From positions 1 through 35,038 of the forward strand of contig JALWYU010000099.1 in NCBI GenBank assembly GCA_026992635.1: a stretch of 35,038 bases of DNA. The letters are read 5' to 3'. Below are positions 15,209 through 21,486 of this stretch, in pieces. The DNA comes from Bacteroidota bacterium. GTDB taxonomy: Bacteria > Bacteroidota > Bacteroidia > JAADEI01. How positions within the stretch are numbered: the first letter of the stretch is position 1; the number at the start of each line of letters is the position of its first letter. The notes under the pieces are model-generated. The model worked only from the letters and a program-made list of their open reading frames with translations, made no database searches and was not told the origin of the DNA. A program made the position numbers and the translations under genes.

Positions 15209-16396
15209 ATGCGGGGCGGGTTTTGGTTCATGCTTCTCACGATTCTGACGATGCCAATCCGGGGATATTGCCAGACCTCCTGGGAAATCAGTTTCTTTTA
15301 TGGGCGTCGCCCTCTGCAGATTGACTCGGTCTTTTCAGGGGACCTGGTCATTGCCAACGCTGAGCCGGTTCGCCTATCCGGCTATGTAGGCGGCGATGCC
15401 GTGATCGTTGCGCCCATTGTTCACCTGTCGGCATTCACGGTTCAGGGCCGCCTCTTCCTGCTCTGCAAACAATGTGTGCTGACGGACGTCCACATAGATG
15501 AGAAGGCGATTCTTTCGGTTTTTCGGGCTATCAGGATGCGGCATGTTCGTGTTCGGAAAGGGATTCGCCTCCGCGCACAAACCCTTCAGATGGAAAAGGA
15601 CACTTTTCGGGGGACATTTCTGGCGACGGTCCGCGATTCCATTGTGATTCACGAGGCGGACCTGGATCGGGCAATCCTGGGCGCGGAACAGTATACAGAA
15701 ATTCAGCGGACAATTCTTCGGCAGCGTACACTGGTTTTGAGCCCTGCACTCTTCCTGGAAGACGTACGCATGCAGGATACATTGATCCACAATGCTGAGC
15801 GGTTGGTGCCCTTTCAGGTGCAGGGACCACTTTTGTATCGTGCGCGGCTGGACGAAGAAGCCCGAACCCTCGTCAAACGCATGGCAATCCCCTACGAACG
15901 GATTGGACGAACCATTCGGCTTACACTCTGGATCCTGTGGATCGTGTTTTCGGGTGTGCTGATTTTGTTATTGAGCCGGTTCTCGTTTTTAGACCTGGAA
16001 GACGCGACGCGCCGCCTGATGCGCACACCCCTGCGTGCATTGTTGTGGGGATTGGGTTTGTGGGTCGTACTGGTTGGGGGCAGCCTCCTCGCACTGATTA
16101 CGTTGATTGGCTTGCCTATTGCCCTTTTGGGCGTACTGCTGATCATTGTCTTGCTCTGGGGGATGCTGGGTCTGGTATCCGTAGGGCTGGTCCGCCTTAT
16201 TGAACAGCGCTTTACAGCTGGGTTGTCCTGGTGGGTTCGCCTGTCGCTGGCTATGCTCATCGGAGCATTGTGGCTACTTCTTCTGGAGTGGACGATCTGG
16301 AGCTGGCTCCTTCTTCTTTTAGTGGCGACGCTCTGGTATGGCGCCCTGCTCTATGGATGGCGTGCCTCCAGTGGACAGCGTACCTCTCCCACCTGA
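15209..16396 (+). CDS. secreted/membrane protein: bactofilin-like beta region followed by several TM helices
   Basis: Signal peptide 'MLLTILTMPIRGYCQ', 'FSGDLVIANAEPVRLSGYVGGDAVIVAPIVHLSAFTVQGRLFLLCKQCVLTDVHIDEKA' (polymer-forming-like periodicity), C-terminal TM helices. Confidence 0.7.
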   Translation: MRGGFWFMLLTILTMPIRGYCQTSWEISFFYGRRPLQIDSVFSGDLVIANAEPVRLSGYVGGDAVIVAPIVHLSAFTVQGRLFLLCKQCVLTDVHIDEKAILSVFRAIRMRHVRVRKGIRLRAQTLQMEKDTFRGTFLATVRDSIVIHEADLDRAILGAEQYTEIQRTILRQRTLVLSPALFLEDVRMQDTLIHNAERLVPFQVQGPLLYRARLDEEARTLVKRMAIPYERIGRTIRLTLWILWIVFSGVLILLLSRFSFLDLEDATRRLMRTPLRALLWGLGLWVVLVGGSLLALITLIGLPIALLGVLLIIVLLWGMLGLVSVGLVRLIEQRFTAGLSWWVRLSLAMLIGALWLLLLEWTIWSWLLLLLVATLWYGALLYGWRASSGQRTSPT

Positions 16397-16476
16397 AAAT
16401 CCCGAAACGAACGTCCGATATCACGCAAAGGAGTTGCCTAACCATCGGAAAAACCAAAAAACGCGTTTTCCGCTCC

Positions 16477-17664
16477 ATGGCACTCTCGGGTTTTCAAAGG
16501 GATGGGCGTCGTGTGGTTTTCCTGCGCAGCTCACCACCTTTTAAGGAGCCGCGCCTGTTAGCCTCCGCCCTCTTCCTGCATCAATGGGGGTTTGAACCCC
16601 AGGTGTTTTTCTGGGATCGCCAGTGGGAATACGAAGAGCGCCTCACCCTGTTTTCTATTGAGTTCATTCCGGGACGAACGCGTCAGCCCGCCCCGTATGA
16701 GCAGGGCGTCCGGAGCCTGCGATTGCGCAGGGAATGGCTGGGTGTTCTCAACCGGTGGCTGCGCGAAGTCCAGCCCCATGCGGTCCACACCTGTGATATG
16801 GATATGGCGCTTTCTTACTGGTTGACGAACAGTCGGTGGCGGCGCCGTGCAGTTCGCTGGGTCTACGATATCTTTGATTTTTTGTGGCGCTATCATACGG
16901 TGCCCCGATGGTTGCGGACCTTGCTCCGGTCCGTGGACCGCGTCCTCTACACCAGTGCCGACGTGATTTTGTTGCCTGAGGAATCACGCCTCCAGGCAAT
17001 TCCCGAGCGCCTCCGGAAAAAAGTTCGGATTGCACCCAATGCCCCGGTCCTGGCTTACTTTTATGAGCGGGGTCAGTTACCCATCTCTCAGGAAGTGCGC
17101 ATTCCGCAGCCAATCGGGGAGTTCGTGCTTTTTTATCCGGGGGTGCTGAGTGAGAGCCGGCACGTCCGATGGTTGCTCCGCATTGTTCGGGACCTGCCCG
17201 AAGTAGAAGTGTGGATTGCCGGATGGGGACCACTGCGCACACAGGTTGAACAGGATGCCGCGCGTCATCCGCGGATTCGCTATCTGGGTCAGCTCACCAT
17301 TGACGCAGTCCTTCCTTTGTATCGGGAAGTGGATTTGCTCTTTGCCATGTATGACCCGCGGTATCCGGTGAATCGTCAGGCGTCGCCCTCCAAGATCTTT
17401 GAAGCGCTCTGGTTTGGCATTCCGGTTCTGGCGACGCGTGGCATGGGACTGGAACCACTCCAGAAGCACTTACCGGGCTTACACCTCCTCCACAACAGCT
17501 ATGCGGACTTTGTAGAGGGGGTTCGCCAGACCCTCGCACGATATGATCAGTGGCGGGAAGCCGCCCGAACTGCCCGTCAGTACTTGCTGGCGCGGATTCA
17601 GGCGTTTGCCCGGGCACTCGCCCACGCCTATGCAGTCCCGCCAGAAGTGGCGGAACTCCGCTGA
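16477..17664 (+). CDS. glycosyltransferase (GT4-like)
   Basis: 'VHTCDMDMALSYW', 'LFYPGVLSESRHVRWLLRIVRDLPEVEVWIAGWGPLRTQVEQDAARHPRIRYLGQL', 'ASPSKIFEALWFGIPVLAT'. Start trimmed to ATG 16477 because the longer ORF overlaps the upstream CDS. Confidence 0.85.
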   Translation: MALSGFQRDGRRVVFLRSSPPFKEPRLLASALFLHQWGFEPQVFFWDRQWEYEERLTLFSIEFIPGRTRQPAPYEQGVRSLRLRREWLGVLNRWLREVQPHAVHTCDMDMALSYWLTNSRWRRRAVRWVYDIFDFLWRYHTVPRWLRTLLRSVDRVLYTSADVILLPEESRLQAIPERLRKKVRIAPNAPVLAYFYERGQLPISQEVRIPQPIGEFVLFYPGVLSESRHVRWLLRIVRDLPEVEVWIAGWGPLRTQVEQDAARHPRIRYLGQLTIDAVLPLYREVDLLFAMYDPRYPVNRQASPSKIFEALWFGIPVLATRGMGLEPLQKHLPGLHLLHNSYADFVEGVRQTLARYDQWREAARTARQYLLARIQAFARALAHAYAVPPEVAELR

Positions 17665-17706
17665 AAAGATTTCCGGTCCCATAAATCGTACGGATTCTGC
17701 AAATCA

Positions 17707-18234
17707 GAGTGCGATCGGTGCCTCCCCGAGTGCCACGGTTGCCACTTCAGAGTGCCACGGTTACCACCCCTGAGTGCCATTGGAGGCACCCCTGAGTGCC
17801 ATTGGAGGCACCCCTGAGTGCCATTGGAGGCACCCCAGAGTGCCATTGGAGGCACCCCAGAGTGCCATTGGAGGCACCCCAGAGTGCCATTGGAGGCACC
17901 CCAGAGTGCCACTGGAGGCACCCCAGAGTGCCATGGGAGGCACTCCTGAGTGCCATTGGAGGCACCCCTGAGTGCCATCGGAGGCACCCCTGAGTGCCAT
18001 TGGAGGCACTCCTGAGTGCCATGGGAGACACCCCTGAGTGCCATGGGAGGCACCCCTGAGTGCCATCGGAGGCACCCCTGAGTGCCATTGGAGGCACCCC
18101 TGAGTGCCATCGGAGGCACCCCTGAGTGCCATCGGAGGCACCCCTGAGTGCCATCGGAGGCACCCCTGAGTGCCATTGGAGGCACCCCTGAGTGCCATCG
18201 TTGCCACTTCAGAATGCCATCGGTGCCTCTGGGA
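17707..18234. repeat. tandem array of ~24 units, 22-bp unit GAGTGCCATTGGAGGCACCCCT; 19 near-identical core units (17772-18189) plus degenerate edge units
   Basis: Read by eye: core unit starts at 17772, 17794, 17816 ... 18168 stay in exact 22-bp register. Each unit carries GTGCC-N6-GGCAC. Edge units carry GTTGCCACTTCA and CGGTGCCTC variants on both sides. Confidence 0.97.
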
Positions 18235-18322
18235 ACGCCATTCACGTCCCCTGGATAGTCCTGCCAGGCGATACTTTTTCCCCTGTTGTGCTCCAGTAAA
18301 GGTTGTGTTTTGCTTTCACGGG

Positions 18323-21046
18323 TTAGCGGATCAGTGTGACGTCGCCTTTGTAGAAATAGCGTCGGCGCCCACACTCCACCTCATAGTAGTACATGTAGAC
18401 GTCGGGTCGTGCTGGCTTGCCCTGGACTGTACCGTCCCACCCCTTTGTGGACCGAAACAGTGGATAGCCGGCAGGCAGGTTGCGCGCTTCAAAGACGGGA
18501 TTGCCCCATCGGTCGTAGATTTTCCACTCACGGATGATCACGGGCGTGATCGCATAGATGTACAGGACGTCGTTTTTGCCATCGTTATTGGGCGTAAACG
18601 TATTGGGTATCCAGGTGTTGTTCTGGCAGGGTGGTGGTTCAATGCCTGTGACGTAGACTGTGTCCCGCGTGATGCATCCGCGGGGATTGACCACTTCAAA
18701 GATGAACATATGGGTTTGTCCGGGCTCGGGTGCCAGTACCCCGATTTGACTGCCATCGGCACTGACCGTAACGATTTGTCCGTCGGGTGAATACCACTGA
18801 GTGCTTACTGCGGGGTTGTCTGTGATTCCGATCAGGGTGAGGGTATCGCCCGGGAAGCCCGCGGTATCCTGTAGGGCGATGGATAGGGCGCCCGTGTCCA
18901 CAATGACGAAGAAGGTGTCCTGCCAGGGGCAGCCCTGACTGGATAGCGCGATGCCAACAAATTGCTGGGTGTCAATTCCAGGAGGTATGAGAATGACTGT
19001 GGTGGGACAGGTGTCGCAGGTTACGTATTGTTCGGGCAGCCATTGCCAGGCACTTCCCACAGGGATAGAGGCGGTTGCCGGCGTCCCTGCACACACCACT
19101 GTATCGGACAATGCAAAGACTGGCAGGGGGTAAGCGGGCACCCCGACCGTATCCCGAAAGCGGCACCCTATGGAATCTGTCGCGTCTACGATCAGGAGGG
19201 CACTATCGCCGGTCATGATCAGTGGCGCTGTCAGACAGGTATCGCACAGGAGTGAAGCCCCACCCGGTGTAAGGACTGTCCACGTACTCGTCTGGAAGGG
19301 AATCCCCGAAGTGCTCACTATAGCGATCATAGTGGTATCCCCGATGCACACCGTATCGGCGATGAGGATCTGTCCTTCTGGTAAATGGACATAGAAGGAG
19401 TCTCGCCAGGTGGCAGTGGAATCGCCGCAGTAGGCGGTGAGCACAAGGGTATTCCATCCGGGCTGGACAGGATGGACCCATCCGGTATCTATGGGAATCG
19501 TATCTAAGTGAAGTGTCCAGCACACATAAGGTGAAGCCTGCACAGCCACATGAACCGAGTCTGAGGGACAGATTTTCTGGCGGTCGGGTGTCCGGCTCAT
19601 CATGGCGGTGTCCACGACACAGGTGAAACACAGGAGGGAGTCGGGAACGGGTGGCGTGGTCCTGGTAGGCGTCAGCGTGTCAATACTGAGCATTGCCGTG
19701 ATGTCCAGGACCACTATCGGAAGATTCACCGAATGGATGTAAGGCGTGACGATAGTTCGTGTCCAGAAGAGCGTATCCAGATAGCAGGCGACGTAGCCCG
19801 TCGTATCGGTTGCCATCAACAGGGCATCGTATTCGTTATTGCCCGCACCATATTTGGCGTTGAGGCTGACAAGCAAGCCAAAGGACGTGCGCACCACACT
19901 GAATGCTGTGGAAGTGGGCAGGGTATAGCGTCGTGCCGTGTGCAGGTTTCCCGCTGTATCGGCAATGAGAAGGAATGCCTGGCGGGCATTACCAACCTGT
20001 GTTTTTCCTGTAATGACGACGCGTGTCCGGTCTAAGTATGTGATGCTGTAGGCTTCTTCCTGGTTGGAACCGCCATAGGTATAGGCGCGCAGGACGTTGC
20101 CTGTCGTATCCAGAAATATCAACAGGATATCGCTGGAGCCCTGAGAGATTGCCGGGTGCCATGTGGTGGTGGCAATGGCGATTTCGTCGCGAGTAGGGGC
20201 TATGGCGCATTCCACACGTCGGAAGCGGCTGTCGTCATCGTTGGTTCCTATACGTCGGGACCAGAGCACCTGACCCTGCAAATTGATGCGCACGATCCAG
20301 ACATCCCGCCTTGTCTCCTGAAAAGTTCCGCAAGCCACATAGGTGTTGCCCAGCGTGTCAATAAAGGAGAAAAACTCCTTGTCGGGGGTTCCATAGACCT
20401 TTGCCCAAATTGGTGTTCCATTGGGATTGGCGGCGAGGATAAAGCCATTATTGTCTGCCAGTCCGGAGGCGGTACCTCCCAGTGCACCTGCCCCAATGAT
20501 GCGCCCATGCGTGATGTCTTCCATTACGTATTCCATGCTTGCCCAGTTGGCGGAGCTGACCCAATTTGCCCAGTAATAGGTATATGCCCAGAGCATGGTT
20601 CCTGACGGGGAAATCCTCCCAATAAATGGTTTGCATGGACAGCCGCTGATGACCTCGGCACGGATTCCCGACACGAGGATATCGCCCGAAGAATGGGGAT
20701 GGATGCATCGTCCGCCATCGCGCCAGTTCCCGCCTAAATCCCATGCGTAGAGCCAGGCGAGGTCGCCACACCGGTTGATTTTCGCCACGTAAACGTCGCA
20801 ATAGGTGTTGGTTTGCTGAAATTGTCCGGTCATGACGAGGGATCCATCCTGTAGCCAGGAAGAGAACAATCCGCCGGTCATACCGGGATGGGGATAGTGG
20901 CGAATGAACGAAAAGACGTTTTGGGCAAGGATTGGGTTGAATCCAGCCAGCATTGTACTCAGCAGGGAGAGGCGGTGTATCCACGAGTGTATGCCGGGAA
21001 CCCCGAACGTCCAGGTTATCCGTCTGGTTTTGCCTGTCGCATTCAT
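18323..21046 (-). CDS. large secreted protein with gliding-motility-associated (CHU_C, type B T9SS-like) C-terminal domain
   Basis: C-terminus 'PPPCQNNTWIPNTFTPNNDGKNDVLYIYAITPVIIREWKIYDRWGNPVFEARN...TKGWDGTVQGKPARPDVYMYYYEVECGRRRYFYKGDVTLIR'. N-terminal half resembles a beta-propeller/SBBP-type repeat. Start at 21046 or 21094. Confidence 0.9.
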   Translation of the reverse strand: MNATGKTRRITWTFGVPGIHSWIHRLSLLSTMLAGFNPILAQNVFSFIRHYPHPGMTGGLFSSWLQDGSLVMTGQFQQTNTYCDVYVAKINRCGDLAWLYAWDLGGNWRDGGRCIHPHSSGDILVSGIRAEVISGCPCKPFIGRISPSGTMLWAYTYYWANWVSSANWASMEYVMEDITHGRIIGAGALGGTASGLADNNGFILAANPNGTPIWAKVYGTPDKEFFSFIDTLGNTYVACGTFQETRRDVWIVRINLQGQVLWSRRIGTNDDDSRFRRVECAIAPTRDEIAIATTTWHPAISQGSSDILLIFLDTTGNVLRAYTYGGSNQEEAYSITYLDRTRVVITGKTQVGNARQAFLLIADTAGNLHTARRYTLPTSTAFSVVRTSFGLLVSLNAKYGAGNNEYDALLMATDTTGYVACYLDTLFWTRTIVTPYIHSVNLPIVVLDITAMLSIDTLTPTRTTPPVPDSLLCFTCVVDTAMMSRTPDRQKICPSDSVHVAVQASPYVCWTLHLDTIPIDTGWVHPVQPGWNTLVLTAYCGDSTATWRDSFYVHLPEGQILIADTVCIGDTTMIAIVSTSGIPFQTSTWTVLTPGGASLLCDTCLTAPLIMTGDSALLIVDATDSIGCRFRDTVGVPAYPLPVFALSDTVVCAGTPATASIPVGSAWQWLPEQYVTCDTCPTTVILIPPGIDTQQFVGIALSSQGCPWQDTFFVIVDTGALSIALQDTAGFPGDTLTLIGITDNPAVSTQWYSPDGQIVTVSADGSQIGVLAPEPGQTHMFIFEVVNPRGCITRDTVYVTGIEPPPCQNNTWIPNTFTPNNDGKNDVLYIYAITPVIIREWKIYDRWGNPVFEARNLPAGYPLFRSTKGWDGTVQGKPARPDVYMYYYEVECGRRRYFYKGDVTLIR

Positions 21047-21078
21047 GGTGGAACTTGGTTTCGCTTCGTTTACTGCAG

Positions 21079-21486
21079 TTAGGGAATGAGACACCAGCGA
21101 TGGACTGCGCCCGGCGGAAAATCCGCGCGTTCCATCAGTTGCAAGAATCGCTCAGTCAGGTGGTTGATATAGTCCGGTGAGGGGGGTGGCGCTTCTTCCC
21201 AGAAAAAGACAAACACGCTGTCTTGCCTTTGCCATTGTGCCTGCAAACCGAAGGCGATTTCCTGCTGGACTTGCATTCCGTAGACGGGGCAGCTCATTAT
21301 CCAGTTGTGCATAATCAGGGCGATGGCAGGGGCAGGTGCCTGCCCCACAATTGGGCGTACCTGCTGGATGAGGGGGGAATCACAGGGTTCAATGGAGGTT
21401 TCTGGAGATTGGGCGATGCCCCTGGGAAAAGTGCTTATTCCAAGAGCCAGAAAAAGTGCCCAGCACATTGTACCAGAGCAATGCAT
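21079..21486 (-). CDS. hypothetical small secreted protein
   Basis: ATG at 21486 gives 'MHCSGTMCWALFLALGISTFPRGIAQSPETS...' with a signal-peptide-like leader. Same strand as and adjacent to the CHU_C gene. Confidence 0.6.
   Translation of the reverse strand: MHCSGTMCWALFLALGISTFPRGIAQSPETSIEPCDSPLIQQVRPIVGQAPAPAIALIMHNWIMSCPVYGMQVQQEIAFGLQAQWQRQDSVFVFFWEEAPPPSPDYINHLTERFLQLMERADFPPGAVHRWCLIP

Follow-up and report, generated by a model that had tools for sequence, protein, structure and literature searches.

What kind of element fills the space between two convergent genes of a Bacteroidota bacterium with nineteen copies of a 22-bp unit whose arms, GTGCC and GGCAC, are reverse complements of each other, and how did it come to be there? 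The stretch of DNA analyzed here (the window, 35,038 nucleotides in length) is considered together with the rest of the genome and with the genomes of other bacteria, and on this combined evidence the array is probably one locus of a lineage-specific family of dispersed intergenic minisatellites of the MIRU-like kind. The genes, called from open frames and Pfam matches, and the repeat units of the locus are as follows.

16231-17664, plus strand: glycosyltransferase gene (PF13692, Glyco_trans_1_4), open frame with Pfam match, start codon uncertain
17706-17771, no strand assigned: left edge of the array, three decayed 22-bp units (AGAGTGCGATCGGTGCCTCCCC, GAGTGCCACGGTTGCCACTTCA, GAGTGCCACGGTTACCACCCCT)
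17772-18189, no strand assigned: core array, nineteen units of 22 bp, GA-GTGCC-ATYGGA-GGCAC-CCCT on the plus strand
18190-18233, no strand assigned: right edge of the array, two decayed units (GAGTGCCATCGTTGCCACTTCA, GAATGCCATCGGTGCCTCTGGG)
18323-21094, minus strand: surface-protein gene with a CHU_C type IX secretion signal (PF13585), open frame with Pfam match

The stop codon of the glycosyltransferase gene lies 41 bp ahead of the first decayed unit, and the CHU_C gene, whose product resembles in its N-terminal part (residues ~80-430) the DUF5122/SBBP beta-propeller proteins of the same genome, has its 3′ end towards the array. The gap between these convergent genes measures 658 bp (17665-18322) and, as the initial annotation had stated, is largely filled by the array, which spans ~17706-18233 with its decayed edge units. 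TRF reports 19.7 copies of the 22-bp unit at 17765-18198 (matches 95%, indels 0%), and in-register reading finds all 19 core units to be exactly 22 bp long and free of indels, in agreement with the earlier description of nineteen units in exact register with arms 11 bp apart. Near-matches to GTGCC-N6-GGCAC (at most one mismatch) number 22 in the whole window against 2.4 expected from shuffles, and 21 of the 22 lie in or adjoin the array. Within the core, departures from the consensus affect 1 of 190 arm bases versus 16 of 228 loop bases (Fisher p = 0.0007); the loop variants are those described before, as is the one altered arm, which in the unit at 18014 reads GACAC for GGCAC. The extent first proposed, 17772-18189, is correct for the core but misses the three decayed units on the left and the two on the right. 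In these edge units GCCAC/ACCAC or TGCCTC occupies the place of the second arm, and inverted pairing is thus absent there: on the left, the two halves of a unit are not reverse complements of each other, and in GAGTGCCACGGTTGCCACTTCA (left) and GAGTGCCATCGTTGCCACTTCA (right) the second half is GCCAC, with the two halves forming direct TGCC repeats 11 bp apart. A coding role for the array was rejected, as the long minus-strand open frames that run through it follow trivially from a unit that lacks a stop on that strand and from a period, 22, that is not a multiple of 3.

Approximately eight related intergenic arrays with a 21-22-bp period, the window array among them, were found in the same genome. 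Its draft assembly comprises 114 contigs and 2.13 Mb, is 82.6% complete, and may contain mis-assembled array lengths. The window array is named C99 and the other loci are named by contig; the family orientation corresponds to the minus strand of the window, on which its unit reads GTGCC-TCCRAT-GGCAC-TCAGGG.

C99, consensus unit in family orientation: GTGCC-TCCAAT-GGCAC-TCAGGG
C14/C55, consensus unit in family orientation: GTGCC-TCCGTT-GGCAC-TCCCCA
C40, consensus unit in family orientation: GTGCC-TCTCAC-GGCAC-CCTCTA
C69, consensus unit in family orientation: GTGCC-TCCTTT-GGCAC-TTCCTG
C25, unit found by GTGCC at 21-22-bp steps without GGCAC: GAGTGCCAACTCCACCACCCC
C109, unit found in the same way: GTGCCTCCTCCACCTCTACTCA
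C80, unit found in the same way, 28.7 copies: GGTGCCGATTGACCCACTGGTG
C48, reverse complement of the unit, from otherwise unselected stretches: ATGCCCTCCAATTGGGAAAAC

This census, which combined TRF over about half of the genome with pattern searches of the whole, is incomplete. Otherwise unselected stretches of this genome yielded C48, and another 549 kb added none; in all, ~790 kb of such DNA contained one array of 21-22-bp period and no other large array. A profile built from nine two-unit sequences recovered, in 1.05 Mb of the genome, only known arrays and one weak two-unit place on C73; it missed the C48, C80, and C109 arrays and is therefore insensitive to divergent ones.

What the loci have in common is a period of 21-22 bp and units that begin with (A/G)TGCC: seven of the approximately eight arrays carry GTGCC, and C48, the reverse complement of which aligns by eye to the family as ATGCC-CTCC, is apparently homologous to them. 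The chain of alternating inverted arms, to which the initial annotation had given defining weight, holds in the core of the window array but is found in only four of the approximately eight loci (C99, C14/C55, C40, and C69) and fails in the edge units; in the arrays without GGCAC, the second arm is ACCCA, TGGGA, ACCAC, or ACCTC. Each locus has its own consensus with uniform core units, and in C99, C69, C40, and C55 the edge units are unlike the core, those of C69 lacking an inverted partner as do those of C99. Just before the C40 array (L037:7247-7380), irregular GTGCC/GGCAC-like palindromes occur off the 22-bp register and are perhaps decayed units. The C14 array lies at a contig end and the C55 array at a contig start, and the two are probably one array cut by contig ends, an indication that array length can be mis-assembled. 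An assembly artefact is nevertheless hardly credible as an explanation of the window array, given that its units are not all identical, that its edges have decayed, that unique sequence flanks it on each side, and that further loci carry different consensus sequences.

A minisatellite family of this kind could have arisen in two stages, in which duplication and recombination near repeated surface-protein genes would first lay down copies, and replication slippage or unequal crossing-over would then lengthen each array and make its units uniform; we infer expansion by slippage. Units with complementary halves, in which GGCAC replaces GCCAC, dominate the C99 and C69 cores while non-complementary ones survive at the edges, and hairpin-prone units may therefore expand more readily.

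The constancy of the arms bears on a different explanation, already raised by the initial annotation, in which a dimeric protein reads GTGCC-N6-GGCAC and polymerizes along sites two helical turns apart. Within the arrays, 14 of 700 arm cells depart from the consensus versus 73 of 840 loop cells (p = 3e-9), in line with the initial annotation, which had seen nearly all variation in the loops; counted by position, however, the departures are only 6 of 50 for arms versus 17 of 60 for loops (p = 0.058). Moreover, all 10 arm bases are common to the four consensus sequences with GGCAC, although the arms themselves had served as the search pattern for these arrays (C99, C14/C55, C40, and C69), so their sharing is partly by construction. 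Conserved and shared arms would suit such a protein, yet we regard it as unlikely, since four sister arrays lack GGCAC and single sites away from the arrays occur about as seldom as chance would predict (GTGCCT-N5-GGCAC occurs there at two places only, one beside the C40 array). Furthermore, C69 mixes 21- and 22-bp units, and exact helical phasing, on which the earlier proposal had leaned, is therefore not required.

Runs of GTGCCA-YNNR-TGGCAC palindromes were observed in rumen Bacteroidales (UBA4301, RGIG4445, RUG12892, RUG14659, and others). They mostly comprise 3-4 palindromes, are spaced by exactly 22 bp in 68 of 69 cases, and are mostly intergenic with mixed gene orientation, occurring at no fewer than 14 places in one genome. 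Their units differ in inner bases and spacers and are therefore not recent tandem copies; by their sequence, these runs look like maintained binding-site clusters and seem more function-like than the arrays of the window family. The two share the GTGCC...GGCAC arms, the 22-bp spacing, and the intergenic position, whereas the rumen clusters differ in having 3-4 units, near-invariant spacing, inner YNNR, unlike spacers, and many loci per genome. For a dimeric protein at the window array, the 22-bp spacing of such palindromes in unrelated bacteria is a point in favor, and the differing inner bases (GTGCCT...TGGCAC in the window family versus GTGCCA-YNNR-TGGCAC) are a point against. The broader proposal, that a Bacteroidota DNA-binding protein reads GTGCC-N6-GGCAC every two helical turns and that the arrays of the window family and the rumen clusters represent the same chromosomal binding platform in two guises, appears highly doubtful; if the arms were protein sites, both would be signs of a chromosomal binding system not described before.

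Transcription through the arrays could instead produce serial hairpins that end or protect the transcripts of the flanking genes, an RNA-level role that we consider distinctly unlikely. In its favor, the arrays lie 3′ of genes at most loci, the window's convergent genes have no ordinary terminator between them, and tandem four-mers of the GGCAC units fold better than shuffled units with RNA parameters (C69, P = 0.003; C14/C55, P = 0.017; C40, P = 0.023), the window unit being borderline (P = 0.05, and 0.33 with DNA parameters). Against it, C80, C48, C25, C109, and both edge units fold no better than their shuffles, two arrays are placed upstream of methylase genes, and the strand of the array relative to the gene is inconsistent. 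Nor does the gap supply the T-run that an intrinsic terminator would need: no hairpin followed by a T-run occurs between 17664 and 18323. Arm changes such as ATGCC, GGCGC, and GTGTC are almost all uncompensated, the sole compensated unit being GAGCC-GCTCCT-GGCTC at the C55 edge, so the arms largely lack the compensatory stem changes typical of a structured RNA. An Rfam search of the array gave no family at its threshold, and the matches, all below gathering scores, were rejected as chance resemblances to microRNA families. The earlier suggestions of a protein platform or a transcript-end role thus drew no evidence of a binding protein or a terminator.

The genes beside the arrays are not a random sample. 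Five of the eight loci (C99, C69, C55, C25, and C109) lie 3′ of DUF5122/SBBP beta-propeller or CHU_C genes, of which the genome has roughly thirty by a rough count, and this is well above chance even when C55 and C69 are counted once. The C80 (L172:11749-12393) and C48 (L179:6288-6623) arrays each lie 5′ of a PF01555 (N6_N4_Mtase) methylase gene; the genome contains five full-length matches and one fragment of this family, and the methylases beside the two arrays are only distantly alike. These are associations with gene type only, and the convergent placement seen in the window is not general among the loci. An obligatory link to SBBP genes was rejected, since most of the SBBP flanks inspected lack an array. 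The DUF5122/SBBP beta-propeller genes form a large family with 156-bp internal repeats (52 residues; L036:1120-2129, L038:7777-8841), and several of these genes lie at contig ends; CHU_C paralogues are present as well. The C55 and C69 loci are copies of one segmental duplication that includes the neighboring beta-propeller gene, and they can be aligned over the array, the spacer, and the gene with 73-80% identity (79-87% in the non-coding spacer). Since that duplication, the consensus has changed at 0 of 10 arm positions and 4 of 12 loop positions, a constancy that would fit selection on the arms in a sample too small to show it. That the arrays might serve as a recombination platform, offering homologous stretches by which the large family of beta-propeller/CHU_C surface genes could be shuffled, gains from this duplication of array and gene together and from the five loci that adjoin the 3′ end of such a gene; it is very improbable all the same, because an array is missing from most of the roughly twenty 3′ flanks inspected at related genes and because the consensus differs between loci, which weakens the homology.

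Beyond this genome, none of 387 further genomes of the class contains an exact copy of the palindromic chain, and 58 relatives lack it even when one mismatch is allowed. In 298 kb of sister-genus DNA, neither 21-22-bp arrays nor matches to the nine-sequence two-unit profile occur. The genus itself is represented by one genome, draft and incomplete, and among the genomes searched the family appears confined to this lineage. A GTDB scan for the motif gave 68 stretches, many of which look like isolated or coding matches; no plasmid relatives were found, and 25 scattered matches in viral contigs, mostly with 23-bp spacing, were read as chance. A 21-bp array with the same arms, GTGCCAAGTCGGGCACGGGAT, was noted in Amycolatopsis palatopharyngis (L103:6853-7183). 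The search for the same core that the initial annotation had recommended thus found further arrays in this genome but none in the 387 others of the class. Occurrence in one genome with random placement had been expected to count against a functional array; the single genome was indeed what was found, but the placement is non-random, with five loci at beta-propeller/CHU_C genes and two at methylase genes.

A dispersed minisatellite family is thus the reading we prefer, and any influence that the array has on where transcripts end or on the local structure of the DNA is probably secondary. Arms that vary less than loops, together with placement that is non-random by gene type, leave room for selection beyond a pure minisatellite. 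The array might also bind a protein or act as an RNA barrier. Within a single genome, the family neatly illustrates how one short repeat can diversify into array-specific versions, and its duplicated C55/C69 pair and preserved edge units make it possible to ask if units that form hairpins are favored in expansion or if selection acts on the arms.

Among known systems, a CRISPR array shares the regular repeat period, whereas in the window the whole 22-bp unit repeats without unique spacers, as the initial annotation had also concluded. REP/BIME elements are likewise intergenic and palindromic and often lie near gene 3′ ends; they are dispersed as isolated or paired palindromes, whereas the window family consists of head-to-tail arrays of a short unit, with isolated copies practically absent and palindromy lost in half of its loci. 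We found no description of this repeat family in the literature. The closest likeness is to MIRU and other bacterial intergenic minisatellites and VNTRs: MIRU units are longer than 21-22 bp and, unlike them, half of the window-family loci have alternating inverted arms, but both comprise head-to-tail units of high mutual identity in related arrays at several intergenic loci, with locus-specific variants.
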